From Amaurobius ferox (Eukaryota; Arthropoda; Arachnida; Araneae; Amaurobiidae), in contig OX578133.1 in NCBI GenBank assembly GCA_951213105.1, positions 138,241,203 through 138,305,202 on the forward strand: 64,000 nt of DNA, given 5' to 3'. Positions 1,285-49,549 of this stretch are shown here, in pieces. Every line of letters begins with the position of its first letter. The stretch's first letter is position 1. The notes under the pieces were generated by a model, which worked only from the letters and a program-made list of their open reading frames with translations, was not told where the DNA came from and ran no database searches. The position numbers were made by a program, and so were the translations under genes.

Positions 1285-1416
1285 AAACAATTCATCTTTC
1301 CCTCCAATTGCAGGTGTTGCCAAAATAAACTAGAACTGGTGATAAAACGAAGTTTGGCATGAGAGATTACTTCTGAATGTTCTGAATCGGCATACATTTT
1401 GCCTTATCGCACGCCA

Positions 1417-2338
1417 GATAGCCTGTGACGCGGATCGTTCGGACTATACCATCCAATGGTGTTGGGAGCACTGGTCACGGGACACCACACAGACATGGAG
1501 GACAGGCTCTGGACGGACCAGGCATACCACGAGTAGAGGGGATCGAATGATCGTGCAGCAGGCACGTATAGAGCCCACGGCGACCCCAGCTGCAATACAG
1601 GCACATGTAGCGGTTCCTGTGTGCCCACAAACCATATCTAGACACCTGAAGAAAGCGAATCTGTGATCCCAGCATCCCTTACGTGTGCTGCAGTTAACAA
1701 GGGGACATCGGCGACTCTAGTTGCAGTGATGCCAGGCCAGAGCAACATGGAAAGTCACAGATTGATGATGTGTGGTGTTTAGCAATGAGTGCCACTTCAT
1801 TTTGAGGACAGATGATGAGTGTGTCCAGGTGTGGGGGTCCTCTGCACAATGCCACAATCCCAATATCGTTATCAAATGCCACACCAGTCCCACTGTAGGC
1901 ATCATGGGCTGGGGAGCCATAGCCAATGACAACCGATCCACTCTAGTAGTGGTACCTGGAATATTGACAGGCCAGTGGTACGTGGATGAGATTCTATGGC
2001 CCCATGTGCTCCCATTCGTTACTGGGATTCCAGGTGCGCAATTCCAGCAGGATAATGCCCAGCCACACAAGGATCAGGTCACCCAGGCCTGTCTGAGTCA
2101 TGTTCAGACACTTCCATGGCTTGCGCGGTCCCCAGACCTGTCCCCTATCAAGCATGTGTGGGACCAGTTGAAACGCCAGTTGCCTCTTTGCCACAATCTT
2201 TGGGATTTGGAACGTAATGTCCAACAGGTGTGGACTCGTCTGCCGCAGGACAACATCAGGTGTCTGTTATATGCAACTGATGGACTTCGAGAGAGGCCTG
2301 ATCATTGGGCTGAAAACCGCAGGGTTGTCAGCATGCCG
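1417..2338 (+). pseudogene. Tc1-like transposase, tandem copy 1 (inactive)
   Basis: This is the first of three tandem units of a Tc1 transposase. It starts at GATAGCCTGTGACG. The N-terminal part carries the family pattern MIVQQARIEPTATPAAIQAH (from about 1547) and then breaks at stops. The catalytic half is open from 1772. The first catalytic Asp is Asn (FSNECHF), the second is kept (FQQDNAQPH), and the third acidic residue, Glu in this family, is Lys (SPDLSPIKHVWD). The copy lacks the natural C-terminus and runs straight into copy 2. It cannot encode an active enzyme. The motifs are read directly; family assignment is from the conserved DDE core. Confidence 0.9.
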
Positions 2339-3281
2339 GATAGCCTGTCATGTGGATCATTTACATGTGGATCATGTGGATCATTTGTATACCGTCTGAC
2401 AGTGTTGGGAGCATTAGTCACGGGATGCCACCCAGACATAAGAGGACCAGCTCTGGATGGACCAGGCATATCACGAATAGAAAGGATAGAATGATCGTAC
2501 GGCAGGAAAGTATATAGTCCAGGGCGATCCGATCTGCGATACAGGCACATGTAGCGGCGCCTGTGTGCCCACGAACCAAATCTGCACACCTGAAGGAAGC
2601 AAATCTGTGATCTCAGAGCCCTTACATGTACTGCCATTAACAAGGGAACATAGGCAGCTACGGCTGCAGTGGTGTTGGGCCAGAGCAAAGTGGAATGCCA
2701 CAGATTGGCGATGTGTGGTGTTTTGTAATGAGTGCCGCTTCATTTTATGGACCGATGTTCAGAGTGTCCGGGTGTGGAGGTCCCCTGCACAATGCCACAA
2801 TCCCAACCTCATTATCGAGTGCCACACCAGTCCCACTGCAGGCATCATGGGCTGGGAAGCCATAGTCTACGACAGCCGATCCGCTCTTGTAGTGGTACCT
2901 AGAACATTGACGGGCCAGCGGTATGTGGATGAGATTGTACGGCCCAATGTGCTCCCATTCGTTGCTGCGATTCCAGATGAGCAATTCCAGCAGGATAATG
3001 CCCAGCCGTACAAAACTCAGGTCACCCAGGCCTGTCTGAGTCATGTCCAGACACTTCCATGGCTTGCCCGCTCCCCAGACCTGCCCCCTATCAAGCATGT
3101 GTGGGCCCAGTTGAAACGCCAGCTGCCTCGTTGCCGAAATCTTTGGGATTTGGAACATAATGTGCAACAGATGTGGACTCGTCTGCCGCAAGACAACATC
3201 AGGTGTCTGTTATATGCAACTAATGGACTTCAAGAGAGGCCTGATCATCGGGCTGAAAACAGCAGGGTTGTCAGCATGCCG
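2339..3281 (+). pseudogene. Tc1-like transposase, tandem copy 2 (inactive)
   Basis: This second unit is about 943 bp and begins with the same GATAGCCTGTCATG motif. Near 2348-2385 it holds three copies of CATGTGGATCA, absent from copy 3, which explains its extra length. The reading frame is open from about 2565 through the junction into copy 3. It shows the same catalytic losses as copy 1: VVFCNECRF (Asp to Asn) and SPPIKHVWA (Glu to Lys). Sharing both losses with copy 1 suggests that these two descend from one already dead unit. It is closer to copy 3 than to copy 1 by eye. Confidence 0.9.
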
Positions 3282-4352
3282 GATAGCCTGTCATGTGGAT
3301 CATTTGGACTATACCGTCTGACAGTGTTGGGAGCATTAGTCACGGGATGCCACCCAGACACGGAGGACCAGCTCTGGATGGACCAGGCATATCACGAACA
3401 GAGAGGATGGAATGATCGTGCGGCAGGAACGTATAGAGCCCAGGGCGACCCGATATGCGATAGACACATGTAGCGGTGCCTGTGTGTCCACGAACCAAAT
3501 CTGCCCACCTGAAAAAAGCAAATCTGTGACCTTAGCGCCCTTACATGTACTGCCATTAACAAGGGAACATAGGCAGCTACGGCTGCAGTGGTGCTGGACC
3601 AGAGCAAAGTGGAATGCCACAGATTGGCGATGTGTGGTGTTTTGCGATGAGTGACACTTCATTTTGGGGACCGATGATCAGCGTATCCGGGTGTGGTGGT
3701 CCTCTGCACAACGCCACAATCCCAACCTCATTATCGAGTGCCACACCAGTCCTACTGCAGGCATCATGGGCTGGGAAGCCATAGTCTACGACAGCCGATC
3801 CGCTCTAGTAGTGGTACCTAGAATATTGACGGGCCAGCGGTATGTGGATGAGATTCTACGGCCCAATGTGCTCCCATTCGTTGCTGGGATTCCAGATGTG
3901 CAATTCCAGCAGGATAATGCCCAGATGCACAAAGCTCAGGTCTCCCAGGCCTGTCTGAGTCATGTCTAGACACCTCCATAGCTTGCCCGCTCCCCAGACC
4001 TGTCCCCTATCGAGCATGTATGGGACCAATTGAAATGCCAGCTGCCTCGTTGCCACAATCATCAGGATTTGGAACGTAACATCCAACAGGTGTGGACTCA
4101 TCTGCCGCAGGACAACATCAGACTTCTGTTCGACACCATGCTGGACCATATTGCTGCTTGTATTGCAGCACTAGATGGTGTGATGCGCTATTGAGGATGA
4201 CCGGACTGTGTACCACAGCTCCCTCTGTACGTGTTTTGCTGTGCTGTTTTTGTGATCATGTATATCATTCATCTGTATCCTTTCATCAATAAAATTTCAG
4301 GTCCATCCTATGCTTCGCTCTTGGTGCGCAACTTTCATTGTCCGTGAGTATA
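3282..4352 (+). pseudogene. Tc1-like transposase, tandem copy 3 with the natural 3' end
   Basis: This third unit is the only one with the family's true C-terminus. The frame ends DTMLDHIAACIAALDGVMRY and then TGA at 4192. It is followed by AATAAA (4289-4294) and a terminal sequence GGTGCGCAACTTTCATTGTC (4323 on) typical of Tc1 ends. It keeps the first Asp (VVFCDE, followed by a stop) and the Glu (SPIEHVWD), but in-frame stops, for example in the HVQT region near 3966, disable it. No matching left terminal repeat is visible near 1290-1420, so the array is a truncated, internally expanded element. Confidence 0.88.
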
Positions 4353-4957: not shown

Positions 4958-7241
4958 CTAAAAAAGAAAAGATCTGGTTACTCAAATCTCAGATGCTATA
5001 AAAAAAATGTAATAACAAAATAAGGTACAAATAAAATAAAGGTATGAATTTAATAAACATTTTAAATGAAGCTATTATTTGATACACCCAGAAAACTGTA
5101 ATAGATGAAAAATACCCAAATAAAATAGCTTGAGATCAATATAAAGCACCACCTACTACAATGTAACAGCAGAAATATATTTTTGTAACAATAAGTGGTC
5201 TATTAGTTGCTATTGTGTCATATTTTTTCATTACTTCAGAAGTATAGTTGTACTTTAAAATCCCTCCATATGAAATATATTAACAGAAATTAAAATGTTA
5301 ATATGCAAAAAAGAAGTTTGCTAAAACTTATGAAATTTAATCAGTTGTTTGATTTTACATGTACTATTGATTGAAGTTCTGACTAATAGGCATTTTTTTT
5401 TTTTTTGTCACCTAAGTAGGTACAAGCATATTACAAGTGTCAGTAGTAGTATCATGTGCAAATTGATAAAAACGATGCTGATTATGCTAAAACATAAAGA
5501 GCAATAATTAATTACAAATGCTTGCCTAAGACCAAATTCAAAAATGTAGTACAAGCAGTACAGATATCAACTGTATACAAAAAGTGGACTCTCAATAAAA
5601 AAAAAAATTTCGAAGTATTGTTGATTTAATGTGGAACCTTAACTTTATAAAAAATTATAAAACTGACTTATTTGTCAGTAGACAGTATCCATAATCCAGC
5701 CATATTTGAAGTTTATTTACCTTAATGGGTAATGCACTTGACATTTCTTTCCAAAATATTAATTTTCTTTTGCAAAATAACTTTAGTGAACTTACTTTAG
5801 TGAACTTAAATAACTTTTTGAGTTTTGTTACGTTAAATGAATTAAACCAACAGACCCTTTTTAAAATCTTAGGTGCCTGGGTGCATATTTCAGAACTTCT
5901 GAAAAAAACAACAGGTTTTTGGTGCATCTTTTAGAGAAATCAGCAGAACCATAATTACTGCAGTGTAATAGCCCACTGACTGTTGAAAAAGTCCGGTTTT
6001 ATAAGTGGTTGGAGCTAGTAACAATGATGCTCTGTATTACTATGATGTTTGAGACATGTGGTTGAAGACCCAGACCGTCCGACTTATCCTAAGGACTCGA
6101 GCAACCATTTGGACGGCCGGTGAGACATGTGGTTGTAAATGCAGGTCATTTAGAACTAGAAACGTCCCAGAACAATTGCGTTGCAATTCCAAAAAAATGT
6201 AATGCCATTTTTAAAACTAGAGATGTCATTGCATTAAATAATGGAATCTAGAACTCTATTCCAAGCTTGTTGATCATAATTTTCATAGTTTCAAGTTGAT
6301 TAATAGAGGGCACTCTTAGAACAGAATAACAAACTGTATTTCAAACACATCAATTTTCAACTTGCCCCATTTTCAGCCTTCAAAGTTTTACAGTCTCTTT
6401 GGTATAGAACAAGCGGATGAGAGACACGATTTGTATTTACACAATGATTTCCCTGAATTTCCCATACAGACTTCTCTAGCTGATTTTATACAGGACCTAC
6501 TTCATTTTAGGCAATTTTGTATCAAATTAGTTTATTTTGATGTGACAACTTAATGGCTTCCTGGAGGGAGAGATGAGAAAGATGTGAGAAAGATGCACAT
6601 AGTGAAGGAAGAAAAAGCCTAAAAAGGAAAATTGGAAAAAAAAACTTTGGAACAAAAAAGATAATTGACAATAAAATAATTGACAAAAACATTGCACATA
6701 ACAAAATATAAATTCAGTTTTACGAATTTTAATTCTATTAGAAACTGATCCCGAATCCATCAATTTATGATGTGAATCACAACAAAAGAGCATTTTCATT
6801 AATGTTAACAATTTACCGAGGGAAAATTTTATACTTAAGGAAAATTTTTCACATCAATTAATATCACTATACTCTTGTCACATTTGGAATTTGGGGAAAA
6901 CATTGTTTTATATATTACTAATACTGAAAATATTTCTTTTTAGAAATGAGGATGCTTGCAAACTTACTTTAGAACCAGATTTAACAAAAATTTTTAGAAA
7001 ATATCAATGCTGCTAAGCAATGGACAAATTATTTTTATTCTGTATAAATTATTTAAAAACAGCATTCAACTGTGTTGCACTTATAGACCGCCTATTTAGT
7101 TTCATGAAAAAATGAGAATTCATACTAGTGGAATATCACTTTCAATCTTAAAGGGTACAAGTATTTTGGGTTAACTATAAAATCCATATCTACACGATTT
7201 CCAATTATTAAAACAGAAATATTAAAAAACTAATAACAAAC
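4958..7241 (-). other. Phase-0 intron of the NAPE-PLD gene
   Basis: This intron is about 2.3 kb, with donor GTTTGT at 7241 and acceptor TTTTTTAG at 4958 on the minus strand. It contains one copy of the 56-bp mini-insertion (6065-6120). The interval 5980-6240 around it is more complex than its surroundings and may be an older repeat. Nothing else was recognised. Confidence 0.85.
6050..6135. mobile_element. Mini-insertion copy A (56 bp) with 15-bp target-site duplication
   Basis: TGAGACATGTGGTTG occurs at 6050-6064 and again at 6121-6135. The 56 bases between them start AAGACCCAGACCGTCC and end TTTGGACGGCCGG. The same ends and core are found at 23160-23222 and 34393-34449. CCGTCC near the start pairs with GGACGG near the end, and TCC-TAA-GGA forms an inner hairpin. 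There is no open frame, no poly-A tail and no GT-AG boundary. I do not recognise the family. Confidence 0.85.
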
Positions 7242-22600: not shown

Positions 22601-23078
22601 TCAGAACCATAAAAAACTGTGTTAAGTCGTTAAACACTGAAATCAAATCTTGAATTGCAGAAGTTTGCAGGGAAATATACTTCATGCACAGTACTTCCAT
22701 CAAAAGAAAATCTGGACCCACTGCTGCAGTATAGTCTCAGGTACCTAGGTACAGATTACTTTGACATGTAGCCTTCTCTTTACAGTACTGAAGGATATCA
22801 CCTTTCCTATTGTTGCAGCCATTGATCAAAGATCTGGTATGGTTAGTCAGCAATTGCATCTGCCTAGTAATATAATGTACTGGTCATCAGATGATGCTGT
22901 AGTCCTAGGACGATCTGGAACAGGTCTTTGGGTAACTGTGCCACTTGTTTAGAATTGTTTCCATAAACAAGAAATGACAGAATGGTCCACAGAAGAAAAA
23001 AATGGATGACTTCCTTATGGACTCTCTTCCCAATAGCACAGCAGAGTTGAGAATCTTCCAAACAAATTTTTTGTCGAA

Positions 23079-23148
23079 AGCCCAGACCGTCCGGCTCATC
23101 CTTAGACATAGTCCTTAGACAAATTCCTTAGACATCCATCCTTAGACA
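23079..23148. repeat. Broken mini-insertion copy followed by a 13-bp tandem array
   Basis: GAAAGCCCAGACCGTCC starts a copy of the mini-insertion that stops after about 27 bp at CATCCTTAGACA. CCTTAGACA then recurs at 23100, 23113, 23126 and 23140, giving four units of 13-14 bp. The array begins inside the element's own inner-hairpin sequence, so it was probably seeded by the element. Confidence 0.75.
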
Positions 23149-23238
23149 AACTCTTTGTGAAAGCCCCAGGCCGTCCGACTCGTCCAGAGGACTTAGAGTA
23201 TCTATTTGGACGACCGGGAAGGAGACAAACTCTTTGTG
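23144..23238. mobile_element. Mini-insertion copy C (63 bp) with 16-bp target-site duplication
   Basis: AGACAAACTCTTTGTG occurs at 23144-23159 and 23223-23238. The 63 bases between start AAAGCCCCAGGCCGTCCGAC and end TTTGGACGACCGGGAAGG. The inner hairpin is GTCC-AGA-GGAC, and the outer stem pairs CCGTCC-side sequence with GGACGACC. It is the longest copy, with six extra bases at the right end. Confidence 0.85.
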
Positions 23239-24609: not shown

Positions 24610-26440
24610 GCTGTTATCATATGTAATTTACATCCAAAATGTTGAAATACAGCTTAATGTTTCAGGGTTTTTAACTGTACCTCAATGATGTATATTTATA
24701 TCTATTTTATTTAATTTTTAATTAGTCTGTTATTCGAATTTAGTTGATAAGTTGCCTATGTAGTTCCTAAAACAGGTAGTTTCCTTCAATTTTTGTTATA
24801 TTCAAGATTCTGCAGCATTTTATTCACCTAGGAGTTTTTTTACAATTTATTCATTATAATGGAGTCAGCTCATCTAGCATTGGAAACCAATTGTTTCCAT
24901 TTTTTTTATATTAATTTTAATTCTAGTCTCATTCACTGATATTTGTAATGTAGTTCAATCATATGTTATTTAGTTGATGAAGTTGTTAATGTAGCTGTCG
25001 AAAATCTGTTTTCCTAAATGTTTGTTAAATGAATATTTTTAATTTTCATCATGAAGTTAGTTCATTTAGATCCTGAAATGCTTTGTATCCTTCATTTTGT
25101 TTTGTACTACATATTTTCTTAATTTTGTTTATAAGTAATTTGACTTTTCTTTTCATATTTAAGTTAATTGAGAATTATCGTATATCTTCCAAAGCCATTT
25201 TTTTTCCTTATTTGTTTTACCATAGAGCATTTAAGTTCATAGTTTCATTCACTGAGAAAGTGTTTTAAACTTTTCTACTGTTCTTTTACCTCCTAGGTTT
25301 TCCTTTTTATTTTATTTTTTAATTCTTTTTTTGTCCAAATTTTAAATTTACTCCCAGAGTCATGTGATGGAACTTTTTATTGACAGACATGTTATTTCTT
25401 GTCTTATGCTTTTGCAGTTACTGCGTCTCTCTATCCTGATAAGGCTCTTTTTTGCCTCTGAAACCTGTTGATACTTTTTACCAACTTTTTATATTATTAT
25501 TAACAAAATATTTTTGTTACAGATTGAAAGATTATTAATTTTCAGCATTAGTAATTCATAGGAAAATATGAAATTATTATTATTATTATTTATAGTTTGT
25601 AGAGAAAGTCATGAAAGTTGGACATTCATTTTACAAATTTAATTTGTAAACTATAAAAATTATAAATATGTGCTTAAAATCAGTCATGTTATAAATCAAA
25701 TCATTTACCATCATGGATGTAGTTTCTTGTTTTTTATTGAAAATACTAGATCTTTAGCTCTTTCCAGATTTGGCTGGGTTTTTTTACTCACAAATAAATC
25801 CATGTGTGCTAAATAATTATTTTGCAGCAATTGTAGCTAAAAGAATTGATTTATAGTAGCATGTCTATAAAGCACAGATGTAAAGCAATCTAATTGGGAT
25901 TTATTAGAAAAATCAGTTTACTTTGATTAAAATTTTAAAACTGATTTTTGAGACCATAAAATATTTTTTATTAATCAGATTTATGTATTAAGTAGATTTA
26001 ACGGTACAAAGATTTCAGTGTGTGCTTTTTTCTTTGTCAATTGTTGTTTAAATGGGTAAAATTGGGCTGTTTTTCTGTAACAATCTCAAACATTAGCTAT
26101 AGGATCCCTAAGTATTTTTTACAAATATTAAATTTCTGTGTCTCTCTCAACTTCATATTTAGAGAATATCAGTGTTACGAAATTTTGATCAAAATAACTA
26201 CGTACTGCATATGTTGAAACCCATAATCATACCACATTTTTTTATATTTATTTCATATCTCTGATATTTGAACCAGTAAATATTTTGTAAATTACTAAAT
26301 ATATTGAATATCACATTATCAAATGGTATTTGATATTCAGTTCTCAAAATCACCCTGCATTCCTAGTTCAAACCAAATAAATATAACCAAATAGTAGTAT
26401 GTATTTTCTATTTGCCATATGTATCTTATATAATAAAAGA
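24610..26440. other. NANS intron 2, AT-rich, nothing recognised
   Basis: T-rich low-complexity sequence with short open frames and no conserved motif or terminal repeat. Confidence 0.5.
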
Positions 26441-27968
26441 ATCTGATGTGGGCAGCACATAACTTTCCCTGCAGACTTATATCCACATTCTCTTTATTTT
26501 AATTAGATTTAATTCACTTTTAATTCAATTTTTGTTCTCATTTGGTAACTAAACTCATTTTCAAAGGTGCCGTAGAGAAAAAACTAAAATATCTCGAGAA
26601 TGGCTAGTCCTACTGTAATGGGGTTGGTCTTACTCTTTTCTTCATTAAAAATTATGTATAAAACAAGCATTTAATGGATATATTTGAGTATACGTAGTTT
26701 TTTATTTTAGATTTTGACAATTTTTGCTGGCCATTTTGCAAAAAAAGGCAGGTTGTTCTTTTCCGAATCATACCAAAATCTAGTCAGCACCAGAGTATCC
26801 TACAAGTAACTTATCTACCAAATTTTGTGAAATTTGGTCAATTAGTATTTTATCTAGAGTGGATACATGAAATTTTTACAGACCATTCCGCAAAAAAAGG
26901 CAGGTTCAGTTTTTACGAATCCTACCAAAAACTAATCAGAACCAGGGTCTCATCCAAGTGAATTACGTTCCAGATTTTATGAAATTTGGTCCATTAGTTT
27001 TTGAGTTAGAGTGGATACATACATTGCACAGACAGACAGACAGACACACACACCGACGTCAACGTTAAAAATAGTTTTTTCGTATTCTAGAGTTCTCGAA
27101 ACATGTAGATCTGTCGAAAACTTGAGTTGCTATTTTTGACATGATTTCAATACTTTCCCTATACATTACCATGTATTGCAGGGAAAGTAAAAATGAATCC
27201 TATTTATAAAACTCAGTCTATAATTTTTACTTACCCTGCAGGACATGGTAATGTATAGGGAAAGTATTGGAATCATGCCGAAAATCACAACTCGAGTTTT
27301 TGACGGATCTACGCATTTCGAGACCTCTAGAATATGAAAAAAACATTTTTAGCATAACGCCTGTGTGTGTGTCTGTGTAATGTATGTATCTACTCTAACT
27401 AAAAAAATAATGGACCGAATTTCATAAAATTTGGTATGTAAGTCACTTAGGTGAGACCCTGGTGCTGATTAGTTTTTGGTAGGATTCATGGAAAACAGAA
27501 CCCGCCTTTTTTTGTGAAATGGCCCGTAAAAATTTCATTGTATCCACTCTAGCTAAAATACTAATTGAACAAATTTCACAAAATTTGATAGACAAGTTAC
27601 ATGTAGGATGATCTGGTGCTGATTAGATTTTGGTACGATTCAAAAAAGAACAACCTGCCTCTCTTTACGAAATAGCCCCCAAAAATCGCCAAAATCTAAA
27701 ATAAAGAAACTATGCATGCTCAAATATATCCATTAAATACTTGTTTTATACGTAATTTTTAACGAAGAAAAGAATAAGACCAACTCCATTACAGTAGGAG
27801 TAGCTGTTCTCGAGATATTTTAGTTTTTTCGTATTTTTTCTACACCACCTTTGAAAATAAGTTCAGTTACCAAATGAGAACGAAAAGTGAATTAAATTTA
27901 AATAAAATAAAGAGAACATGGAAATAAGTCTGCAGGGAAAGTTATGTGCTGTCCATATCAGATTTTTC
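26441..27968. repeat. Large palindrome, arms of about 750 bp, spacer of about 27 bp
   Basis: The left arm (26441-27194) runs from AATCTGATGTGGGCAGCAC to GCAGGGAAAGTAAAAAT. The right arm (27222-27968) is its reverse complement, from ATTTTTACTTACCCTGCAGG to GTCCATATCAGATTTTTCGT. Each arm also holds two direct copies of a segment containing CCAAATTTTGTGAAATTTGG and a CAGACAGACAGACACACACA run (mirrored on the right). The terminal motif TACTTTCCCTATA recurs around 50970, 51895 and 54437, so the family is dispersed. In NANS pre-mRNA it would fold into a long, nearly continuous hairpin. Confidence 0.9.
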
Positions 27969-28699: not shown

Positions 28700-29414
28700 T
28701 GTGAGGAACCCGTCATTTTTTCGAGTTTATTTTCAGCCATTTTCAGAACAGTTTTAGAGTTCATACACCTTAAGACCGCCTGCATTGCAGTTTTGGGAAA
28801 ACAAAGCTATAAAACTCTGTCATCACAGTCTGATTTCGGAGAAATGCACCCATTTTGAGCCGTCATCAGAGAAGGGAGAACTAATCCCAGAGGGGAGCGT
28901 TAGGTGGTCTATGATATGAAGAGCTTGGAAAAAATATTCCAAAAGCTTAGTCAGGGTAGTCCTCAAATTTTGGACCAGAATATATACACGAAAGAGACGC
29001 TTTTTGACAGAGGCGAGACAATTTTCGTAGAGACAGGTCGCACTTTTGGTGCTCCTGATGCACAGGTTCTTGCCCTCACCAGAATGTTATTCTGTAACCT
29101 TTGATATTCCTTGTCATGCTATAATAAAAGCTTATTTTCTTATCAACGATGCCTGTTTTATCCAGACTTGGAGAAATTCATTATTATTATCATTTTGTCA
29201 CTGATTCGAACTCACAAATTTTGAAAGGAATGGCTACTTGCATTTAGGTTGGCACATTTTACTATGTGCGCTGACCAGACTAACGCTACTAAATCAGCAA
29301 TCATGCAGAGGTCTGAAAGAGAGCCGAAAAATCAAATTTATAACAAATGATATCCAGCGGCAGGATCCTTTACAACATGGTATCCAGCAGCAGGAGAATG
29401 ATAAATTCATAACA
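28700..29414 (+). repeat. 5' LTR of the gypsy-type element (715 bp)
   Basis: It starts TGTGAGGAACCCGTC and ends ATTCATAACA, giving TG...CA ends. It holds AATAAAAGC near 29122. By eye it differs from the 3' LTR at roughly 25-30 sites plus small indels, about 4 percent. Confidence 0.92.
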
Positions 29415-33210: not shown

Positions 33211-33933
33211 TGTGAGGAACCCGTCATTTTTTCGAGCCTATTTTCAGCCATTTTCAGAACAGTTTCAGAGTTCATACACCTTAAGACCGCCTGCATTGCA
33301 GTTTTGGGAAAACAAAGCTATAAAACTCTGTCATCACAGTCTGATTTCGGAGAAATGCACCCATTTTGAGCCGTCATCAGAGAAGGGAGAACTAATTCCA
33401 GAGGGGAGCGTTAGGTGGTCTATGATATGAAGAGCTTGGAAAAAACATTCCAAAAGCTTAGTCAGGGTGGTCCTCAAATTTTGGACCAGAATATATACAC
33501 GAAAGATATGCTTTTCGATAGAGGCGAGACAATTTTCGTAGAGACAGGTCGCACTTTTGGTGCTCCTGATGCACAGGTTCTCGCCCTCACCAGAATGTTA
33601 TTCTGTAACCTTTGATATTCCTTGTCATGCTATAATAAAAGCTTATTTTCTTTATCAACGATGCCTGTTTTATCCAGACTTGGCGAAATTCATTATTATT
33701 ATCGTTTTGTCACTGATTTGAACTTACGAATTTTGAAGGGAACAGCTACTTGCATTTAGGTCAGCACATTTTACTTTATGTGCACTGGCCGGACTAACGC
33801 TACTGAATCAGCAATCATGCAGAGGTCTGAAAGAGAGCCGGAATGAAGAAACAAATTTATAACAAATGATATCCAGCGGCGGGGTCCTTTACAACATGGT
33901 ATCCAGCAGCAGGAGAATGATAAATTCATAACA
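33211..33933 (+). repeat. 3' LTR of the gypsy-type element (723 bp)
   Basis: It starts TGTGAGGAACCCGTC, ends ATTCATAACA, and is followed by the duplicated TAGTT. It is 8 bp longer than the 5' LTR through small indels, mainly near GAAAGAGAGCCGGAATGAAG. Confidence 0.92.
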
Positions 33934-34073: not shown

Positions 34074-35422
34074 TGAGGTAGAATCCAAAAGTTCAGGGAC
34101 TGCACCCACACGTGGCAACAGAAGCATGTAGTTGGTTATATCATCTGAAATACATCTCGCTATCCCTTCCCTCTGTAGTCAGAATGGCTTAGCAAAAGAT
34201 ACACAATTCAACTGCACATGCAGACATGTTATGCTGTAGTTAGTCATCTTAATTCTGCGATTTAAGAAACGTGGATTTTCAAGAGCAATATTATAACATT
34301 AAACTTTGTCAGCATTTGGGTGAAACAGCTGCAGAGACTTTAAAAGTGCTAAAGAAGGTGTTCGGTGACTACCATAATGAGATCAAAGGTGTCAAAAACC
34401 CAGTCCGCCCGACTCGTCCTAGGACATGAACCGCAAATTGGATGGCCAGGAGATCAAAGGTGTATAAGTGGTATTGGTATTTTAAAGAGGGCCGAGAATC
34501 CATCGCAGATAATGTGTACTCTGTTCAACCTGCGCCTGTATGGACTGAGGAGAACATTAATTTGGTTTTATAGTGTATTCACCAGGATCATCGCCAAACC
34601 TTAAGGGCATCGCTAATGCTACTTACTTATCAAAGACCTGATGCCAGCAAATTTTGACCAAGGATCTTAACATGCACTGTGCCTGTCAGTGCATTGTACC
34701 TCATCTTTTGACCTATAAATAAAAGGAGGAATGCTTGTAGATATTGTGTAAATTAATCGGCAAGGCCAATAGTGATCAAACATTTTAGATAAAATCATCG
34801 TAGATGATAAAACTTGGAACTACTTGTTTGATATTCAGCCAAAGCCTGCTTTTTCAACATGGAAATCACCATCTTCACCACAATAAAAAAATGCTGATAG
34901 TGTCATGGGAGTAAAACAGTGATCATTTATTCATGGGGACAAAACAGTGAACAAGAACATTATCTAGACTTTTTACATTATTTGCGGGAGTCCATCCATT
35001 GTAAATGACCTGGGCGAAGTAGACAATGGCAACATCTAATGTGCCTGCACATCAGTTCCTAATGGTCACAAAGTTTCTTGCCAGAAATGGTACTAATATG
35101 CTTCCATATTCTGCCTATTCACCTGAATTAGCCACCTGCAATTTTTATTGCTTTCCACTGATGAAACAAAATTTACAGGGATGTTGTTTTGTGTCAGCAA
35201 ATGAGGTAAAAGTAGCATCACAGGAAGCGTTATAGGTGGTTGCAAAAGATAGTAGCACTCATAAGTTGTACAGAGAAGCTGTACGACAGAAGCTGTATGA
35301 GTGCTGACAAAAGTGTATCATCGCCCAAGGTGATTATTTTGAAGGTGGTTGTGTTTAATGTTTTAAACTATTCAAGGTAAGAAACTATATGCCAAGTCTC
35401 CAAACTTTTGGATCCCACCTCA
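34074..35422 (+). mobile_element. Mariner-type element, full length with terminal repeats, dead
   Basis: The left end TGAGGTAGAATCCAAAAGTT and the inverted right end TGAGGTGGGATCCAAAAGTT are flanked by TA (34072-34073 and 35423-35424). The length is 1349 bp, or 1278 bp without the mini-insertion and its duplication. The transposase runs on the plus strand from about 34290. LGETAAETLKVLKKVFGDYH is followed, across the mini-insertion, by VYKWYWYFKEGRESIADN. Near the end VPAHQFLMVTKFLARNG and YSPELATCNFYCFP are readable. The second catalytic Asp is Ser (SNVPAHQ) and the third is Asn (TCNF). Confidence 0.87.
34379..34463. mobile_element. Mini-insertion copy B (57 bp) inside the mariner, 14-bp target-site duplication
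   Basis: GAGATCAAAGGTGT occurs at 34379-34392 and 34450-34463. The 57 bases between start CAAAAACCCAGTCCGCCCGA and end ATTGGATGGCCAG, with the inner palindrome GTCCTAGGAC. The mariner transposase frame is continuous across the site if one duplication plus the 57 bp is ignored, which defines the empty site. Confidence 0.9.
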
Positions 35423-48600: not shown

Positions 48601-48604
48601 TATA

Positions 48605-49348
48605 CAGGGTGTTTCTAAAGTCACGCAACCCACATTTCTTTTGATATTTCCCAATAAAAGGACAAAAATATGAAATATTCACAGTAAATAGTTTAATGTC
48701 TGCATAACATCATGCCTTACAACAAATGCTGAAAATGAAACCATTTGCTGCCAAGCACAGCTCTACTCGACGACAGGTATTTGTAGCCACACGCTGCAGC
48801 ATATCGGTGGGGATGGGTGCAGTGATGTTGTGGATGTTGTCCTTTAAGGCTTCGATTGTCTTTGGATTGTTTGCGTATACACGTTCTTTGAGATAAGACC
48901 ATAGAAAGAAATCAGGGGATCTGGGTGGCCATAGTCCACATGAAATGACCCTATCACCAAACACTGATTCAATGACTGCAAGGGATTTTCTTGAGGTGTT
49001 TATTAGGCCTACTACTTCGTCGTCGGTCATTAACAGAACCAGTGTTCCTGAATTTTTTGACTACACGAAGTATCAATGATTTATTCGGCACATTTCATGT
49101 TTCAAAATGTTTGCAAAACGCTGAACGAACAGTTTTGTAAGAATTAGTCTTCAAATAATGCTCCACAATAAATACACGCTCCGGTAAACTGAGCGCCATT
49201 TTAAAACTATGTGAACTGACTCTGTGCTAACAACACCATCTATTGTGCATTATATGATGTATAAATAGCGTGAAATTCAAACATCTGTCTTTATATTTAT
49301 GAGAGATATCAACCGAAATGTGGGTTGCGCAACTTTAGAAACACCCTG
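48605..49348 (-). mobile_element. Miniature mariner-type element (DUF4817 family), TA duplication
   Basis: The left end CAGGGTGTTTCTAAAGTCAC and the inverted right end CAGGGTGTTTCTAAAGTTGC match over about 34 bp and are flanked by TA (48603-48604 and 49349-49350). Inside, on the minus strand, is the DUF4817 helix-turn-helix start MALSLPERVFIVEHYLKTNS (from about 49200) up to RNTGSVNDRRRSRP. A junction follows, then the C-terminal end of the transposase, CGLWPPRSPDFFLWSYLKER and on to 48710. The middle catalytic part is deleted. It inserted next to the DUF659 relic. Confidence 0.9.
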
Positions 49349-49549
49349 TAGTTTACAATAGCCTGTATGACTATACTAGAATCAAAAAGAATTGCAGTGT
49401 ACATATAAATCACAGGTCTACATTTTAAAGCATGAATACACTACATTTCACTGCAAGGAAACTCAAATTACCTCAACTAAGGGTGGTATTGATAGACTCT
49501 TGTGATACATCCTGGGAAATGCTTTATGGTTAAGCAGTCTATCAAACTG

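Follow-up and report, generated by a model that had tools for sequence, protein, structure and literature searches.

Introduction

Copies of LINEs that are truncated at the 5' end have a fixed 3' end, a variable 5' end and target duplications, and the LINEs of the R1 clade, such as R1, SART1, Waldo and Mino, are site-specific. For the stringent-type LINEs ZfL2-1, ZfL2-2 and UnaL2, PMC4176376 describes a stem-loop in the 3' tail that is recognised, notes that the 3' UTR is also needed by R2 and SART1, and treats recognition of the 3' stem-loop by ORF2, together with LINE-SINE pairs that share a tail, as established for stringent LINEs. Nine SINEs of Blattella germanica were delimited, according to PMC9191728, by a minimum length of 150 bp, the presence of a Pol III promoter, at least three copies and flanking duplications.

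Here, we analyse three inserts of 56, 63 and 57 bp in a 64-kb window (the whole stretch of DNA studied), which are very probably retroinserted 3' tails of R1-like LINEs, in which a hairpin would be recognised and copied by target-primed reverse transcription, with copying usually ending at the hairpin base.

Results

Three inserts between exact duplications

The original prediction had placed three related small sequences between direct duplications that differ from one locus to the next, and all three pairs proved to be exact. Insert 1 (56 bp; 6065-6120, minus strand) is a hairpin-only tail whose sense strand begins at the hairpin base, CCGG, and is flanked by identical 15-bp copies of TGAGACATGTGGTTG at 6050-6064 and 6121-6135; it matches the family profile with an E-value of 1.3e-16 and folds into the family shape at -17.8 kcal/mol. 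Insert 2 (63 bp; 23160-23222, minus strand), a B-type hairpin-only tail with the sense 5' end CCTTCCCGG, lies between identical 16-bp copies of AGACAAACTCTTTGTG at 23144-23159 and 23223-23238, with a profile E-value of 1.2e-16 over 23160-23217 and a fold of -24.4 kcal/mol. Insert 3 (57 bp; 34393-34449, minus strand) is a diverged hairpin-only tail between identical 14-bp copies of GAGATCAAAGGTGT at 34379-34392 and 34450-34463; its profile E-value is 7.6e-15, and its minimum-energy structure (-13.2 kcal/mol) no longer has the family shape.

A profile built from these three copies recovered all three in the window together with one older partial copy (23077-23106, minus strand; E 3.5e-4), which is followed by TCCTTAGACA-like repeats as far as insert 2; two more matches (E 6.2 and 44) fall under the inclusion threshold. 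The inserts and the partial copy have one common orientation, and the 15-mer CCGTCCGACTCGTCC with up to three mismatches has four matches in the window against 0.07 expected. At gathering score, Rfam has no match in the window; with the limit relaxed to E 10 it gave 14 weak matches, all of them outside the inserts.

The window also contains other elements. At 1409-3837, a unit of ~930 bp is present in three tandem copies, with ORFs that by eye resemble Tc1/mariner transposases. A fold-back of ~1.5 kb at 26437-27967 has nested inverted arms that are 84-89% complementary and, on each strand, matches the microRNA family MIR5512 below threshold. The direct repeats at 28700-29414 and 33211-33933, which lie 4.5 kb apart and are 89-97% alike over ungapped pieces, are probably the long terminal repeats of an LTR retrotransposon, and the 748 bp at 48603-49350, with 51-bp inverted ends from TACAGGGTGTTTCTAAA that are 88% complementary, are probably a small DNA transposon.

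Copies and target-site duplications across the genome

Across the 3.56-Gb genome (276 contigs), CCGTCCGACTCGTCC with at most two mismatches gave 29,471 + 29,751 = 59,222 matches, a count of 15-mer matches that includes LINE-borne copies, compared with 446 + 409 = 855 for the reversed 15-mer. A strict full-length pattern gave 2,893 + 2,935 matches, and its control 0 + 0. Exact matches to a short pattern were also recorded in 18 viral contigs, as may happen by chance at this length.

To sample these copies, we assembled a length-neutral set of 91 copies in 88 loci, each with the exact 15-mer and chosen regardless of length; they are the first places listed on contig C1, which biases the set to young copies. 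With a duplication called at a score of at least 10 and the right flank shuffled as control, 83/91 copies have a duplication (control 1/91), which is perfect in 72 of the 83, and eight have none (L047, L057, L069, L073, L075, L077, L084 and L098). A second set of 46 copies, chosen for reaching CCGG and therefore kept out of the length distribution, has duplications in 42. For both sets together, duplications flank 125 of 137 copies and are absent from 12, with 0/137 in the control, and among the 109 perfect duplications 14 bp is the commonest length (53), with a range of 10-30 bp. The test that had been proposed for the window duplications, namely whether other copies are likewise flanked, thus came out in favour of their being target sites of a mobile sequence.

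Two unusual arrangements were seen among the sampled loci. L029, L034, L092 and L165 hold paired hairpin copies, successive insertions into one target with a duplicated site in common. The insert of L044 is palindromic, the tail being followed by its own inverted copy plus flank, an arrangement such as fold-back or twin priming might produce.

Orientation and target preference

The plus-strand start of the inserts, TGAAGACCCAG, is constant and the opposite end varies, so the sense strand is the minus strand, ending ...GGACGAGTCGGACGGTCTGGGTCTTCAACA-3'. Inserts of 27 to 750 bp have this sense 3' end in common and vary at the 5' end, which reverses the orientation first proposed, with the A-rich "start" lying at the 3' end.

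Written for the plus strand, the target before insertion is GTGT|GTAA (n=94, from the 125 duplicated copies minus 17 with other offsets and 14 ending like the SINE-tail site described below). GT precedes the cut in 81/94, and the next four positions are G in 76%, T in 65%, A in 67% and A in 62%. This preference is compatible with priming on the RNA end, in that a GT-rich primer can pair with the terminal ACA. The conserved target thus lies at the opposite end of the duplication from the (T)GAGA or AGA preference suggested earlier, for which we found no support. The same prediction had favoured target-primed reverse transcription, a view strengthened by the duplications, the target logo and the constant 3' and variable 5' ends.

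The paired ends (CCGTCC with GGACGG) between flanking duplications could also be read as the terminal inverted repeats of a very small DNA transposon or MITE. However, only one of the ends is fixed, the position of the second varying over the whole range of insert lengths, the duplications are not of constant length, and the same 3' end is found on a LINE with ORFs; on these grounds we rejected this reading as extremely improbable.

The tail folds into a conserved hairpin

The predicted tail fold consists of an 11-bp outer stem with one bulge, one-sided internal loops, a 4-bp middle stem and a small terminal hairpin, followed at the 3' end by a short single strand, about CUUCAACA. The commonest tail (type A), that of insert 2 (type B) and that of the SINE take this one shape at -24.1, -24.0 and -23.1 kcal/mol, respectively, despite their different inner parts.

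In an alignment of 48 distinct tails, 96.1% of cells in the outer and middle stems are paired compared with 91.7% in shuffles, 7 of 15 pairs have changes on both sides (2.7 on average in shuffles), and the covariation score is 0.256 versus 0.170. None of 500 shuffles attained the observed pairing, both-sided changes or covariation score, a result to be read as strong covariation and not as a strict probability because the tails are related and the row of L134 was found by an outer-stem rule. The number of further standard pair types was attained by 3/500 shuffles, and shifting the structure by 1-3 columns left only 20.8-51.9% pairing. The terminal hairpin has 4 bp in 36 of the 48 tails, 3 bp in seven and is missing in five, with the 4-bp form present in 7% of shuffles. 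Compensatory changes thus support the fold, and with it the earlier suggestion that an RNA fold may matter.

The hairpin has no Rfam match in the window inserts or in L004, L036 and L103. A GTCC-loop-GGACGA motif had suggested a hammerhead-like ribozyme; this candidate was rejected by eye, the catalytic core being absent.

An R1-like LINE and a tRNA-like SINE end in the hairpin

Longer inserts with the hairpin as their 3' end, each with its own 14-bp duplication, were found at L002 (609 bp), L052 (396 bp) and L103 (750 bp). That of L103 extends to a CxCG...H...C finger, which we take to be typical of LINE ORF2 C-termini; its 65-aa C-terminal ORF2 piece had no match in Pfam. With 271 nt of L103 as query there were 1,946 candidates, among them 40 scored matches, all identical to the query; we named this family LINE-S. 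An ORF1 of 644 aa is present in L129, L132 and L133, and in L129 the ORF2 is open over 1,193 aa, with endonuclease (PF14529), reverse transcriptase (RT; PF00078) and RNase H (PF00075) domains in Pfam. The named relatives of its RT are R1/R1DM elements of Araneus ventricosus and Trichonephila clavipes (38-45% identity), while the best match is an unnamed sequence at 60% identity; by the names of these relatives, from which the R1 label is taken, LINE-S is an R1-like LINE. Named relatives from two spiders also point to an arachnid host.

The LINE-S 3' end matches inserts 1, 2 and 3 (minus strand) at 89, 89 and 80% identity over 65, 65 and 70 nt, and its ORF2 has no match within the 64-kb window. 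Judged by sequence, the three window inserts are the 3'-terminal hairpin of R1-like LINEs. LINE-S sequence also adjoins the hairpin in L084 and L098, both without a duplication. The commonest (A) tail is borne by a second family, LINE-T, a putative LINE so classed on the resemblance of its 3' region (L002, L185) to the corresponding part of LINE-S.

A SINE of ~290 bp also ends in a version of the tail, so that one tail is found on both the coding LINE-S and a tRNA-like SINE. The SINE head is weakly tRNA-like: the match in L004 stands at the expected place with 26.2 bits against the Rfam cut-off of 29, while Rfam up to E 1 found no tRNA in L030 and ARAGORN no tRNA gene at four SINE-bearing loci. 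The mini-element originally proposed as apparently undescribed is mobile, but the evidence does not support it as free-standing, since its sequence forms the 3' end of the LINEs L002, L103 and L129 and of the tRNA-like SINE, and the alternative raised with it, that the sequence belongs to a longer known repeat, holds in part.

The SINE is also the target of LINE-S. Among the 20 best LINE-S matches (L107-L126), the tail motif was found in 18, and 17 of these readable loci are followed on the 3' side by the interior of the SINE tail (ACACCTTTCTGGTAGG or a near match), the exception being L120. The SINE-tail site forms the duplication of 12 of the 125 duplicated copies; ten of the 12 are hairpin-only inserts, and the others (L052, L103) are long copies of LINE-S. 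Intact SINE tails occur elsewhere as empty paralogues of these filled sites, and the two states together therefore demonstrate precise insertion with duplication. As far as these flanks tell, LINE-S inserts at one site in the 3' tail of the tRNA-like SINE, a tail that is itself of the hairpin family, and the shared site suggests that short copies and LINE-S have their endonuclease specificity in common.

Divergent tails were noted at L134 (6533-6593, minus strand) and L086 (376-437, minus strand), with an outer stem of CCACAC/GTGTGG and not CCGTCC/GGACGG; that of L134 sits behind the ORF2 end of a different LINE.

Most inserts consist of the hairpin alone

Among the 83 duplicated copies of the length-neutral set, insert length is 55-68 bp in 55, short of the usual SINE length of 150-600 bp, at most 54 bp in 16, 69-130 bp in eight and longer in four. 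Rfam gave no Pol III-type head (tRNA, 5S or 7SL) for the hairpin in the window or in L004, L036 and L103; the sole tRNA-like match, in L004, falls where a SINE next to the hairpin has its head. Of the 83 inserts, 26 end precisely at CCGG, where the outer stem has its base, and 14 end 4-6 bases beyond it.

These ends lack microhomology: in the 26 copies that end at CCGG, the first duplication base is G in seven, C in seven, T in six and A in six, with no enrichment of G, the next base of the LINE. In both sets, at least one matching base was seen at 10/40 CCGG ends and at 9/20 internal ends, the latter figure being weak because L007 and L078 align poorly to the template. Of the A-type copies that end one base past CCGG, 6/12 have A or C in place of the LINE's G.

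The two LINE tails differ in how often they continue. The A tail reaches CCGG in 3,604 copies, with YYTTCCC upstream in 541, and is adjoined by the LINE-T body sequence AACTTTCCTTCCC in at least 35 (1.0%); when 12 of the A copies with YYTTCCC were read, two (L181, L185) continued into the LINE-T body. Looser LINE-T junction matches, with any tail type, number 348, so that even if all were A tails their share would be under 10%. The LINE-S tail reaches CCGG in 822 copies, at least 319 of which (39%) are adjoined by the LINE-S body. The counts of 35 and 319 require exact upstream sequence and are lower bounds, and the controls for the A-tail, LINE-T and LINE-S span and junction patterns were all 0. 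A tails are thus overwhelmingly hairpin-only and LINE-S tails also end at the base in part; since 39% of hairpin-spanning LINE-S copies enter the body, ending at the hairpin base is no fixed outcome.

These data bear on the template that was copied. One possibility, which we regard as somewhat improbable, is that the template was always a long LINE RNA from which the RT falls off at the hairpin base, making the short copies dead, extremely 5'-truncated LINEs. Truncation certainly occurs, because the 16 shortest inserts stop inside the hairpin and four exceed 130 bp, and LINE-S tails, too, often end at the base. SINE tails likewise yield solo inserts: nine SINE-type tails have no recognised SINE body adjoining, and among the four with 13-19 bp duplications (L030, L050, L088, L090) two start at the hairpin base; that of L030 adjoins a full SINE with the identical duplication. 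Against such an RT stop stand the absence of microhomology at the base, the substitutions for the LINE's G one base further, and the rarity with which the A tail enters a body despite having the same fold as the LINE-S tail, a difference that is nevertheless compatible with differing RT processivity. The missing microhomology and the contrast of 39% versus 1% lead us to lean away from a pure RT stop, while allowing that the RTs of the two families may differ.

We prefer a reading in which many templates would be short RNAs, trimmed or processed, that begin at the hairpin base (predicted length 57-63 nt, with CCGG or CTTCCCGG as the 5' end), and give it about an even chance; the weights attached to these sub-mechanisms are shares inside the main statement and not additional to it.

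A further reading takes the hairpin as an independent, minimal SINE-like retroposon, with copies transcribed within host transcripts and excised as short hairpin RNAs, which R1-like LINEs would then copy in trans. The mini-element idea survives here as a serious reading because only 35 of the 3,604 A tails adjoin a known LINE body; several variants, each with many near-identical copies, and the two favoured ends, at the hairpin base and 4-6 bases beyond, also speak for it. Yet no promoter-bearing head is evident, the hairpin having no match in Rfam, the LINE-borne A tails among the 12 copies read offer a LINE source, and the count of 35 demands exact upstream sequence where looser matching gives 348, all of which leaves independence doubtful.

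Discussion

Hairpin-only insertion by R1-like LINE machinery is well supported by the sequence comparisons, and we rate the hairpin-only inserts as belonging within the LINE/SINE-tail system, not as a class of their own. In the proposed mechanism, the tail RNA would fold into a closed hairpin with a short single-stranded 3' end, which the LINE ORF2 protein would recognise. The protein would nick the GTGT|GTAA site, the GT-rich primer would pair with ACA at the RNA end, and the RNA would be copied by target-primed reverse transcription. Copying that mostly ends at the hairpin base would insert the hairpin alone, with a duplication mostly of 13-16 bp. What the sequences show are the duplications, the target preference, the fixed and the variable end, the covariation, the 3' end common to a coding LINE and a SINE, and the length peak; the recognition of the hairpin, probably by the LINE copying enzyme, and the reason why copying ends at the base are inferred.

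If the hairpin alone suffices for copying and insertion, the minimal natural substrate of LINE machinery would be shorter than 65 nt, and tiny insertions may form a large class that escapes notice through its shortness. The genome would then hold a record of thousands of LINE reverse transcription endpoints, which are otherwise studied with few constructs, and the contrast between 39% and 1% for tails of the same shape makes the RT-stop and short-template models directly testable. It is rather unlikely, in our estimate, that the hairpin of ~57-63 nt is a self-propagating retroposon that lacks promoter, head and body, consists only of an RT-recognition hairpin with a 3' end able to pair with the primer, and has copies that would seed others via short RNAs processed from host transcripts; if true, it would be smaller than any retroposon known to us and set a lower limit for target-primed reverse transcription. 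Very short inserts with clean duplications would be usable as phylogenetic markers, and the homing of a LINE on SINE tails would merit separate study.

In the open-licence PMC literature, the 13-mers of the element do not occur and no hairpin-only insertions were found by titles and abstracts, which is weak evidence of novelty; nor did we find, in the open-licence literature, a published case of a genome that appears, as this one does, to have the tail alone as its main product.

Compared with known systems, the inserts resemble 5'-truncated LINE copies in their fixed 3' end, variable 5' end and target duplications, and differ in that 55/83 fall within 55-68 bp and that a single base is the endpoint of 26, the latter without microhomology. 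LINE-S is like the R1-clade LINEs in having an ORF2 with endonuclease, RT and RNase H and a target preference, inside the SINE tail; unlike them, it targets a SINE tail and not rDNA or telomere repeats, with the R1 label itself resting on the names of relatives. With the Blattella germanica SINEs, as portrayed in PMC9191728, the inserts have in common that they are short, multi-copy and flanked by duplications, with a tail shared with a LINE, whereas the hairpin inserts of the window measure 56-63 bp and no Pol III-type head was found in them. There is also a likeness to the stringent LINEs of PMC4176376, where LINE and SINE share a 3'-terminal stem-loop and insert by target-primed reverse transcription; in contrast to those LINEs, of the L2 clade or other, the RT here is R1-like and the tail alone is the main product.
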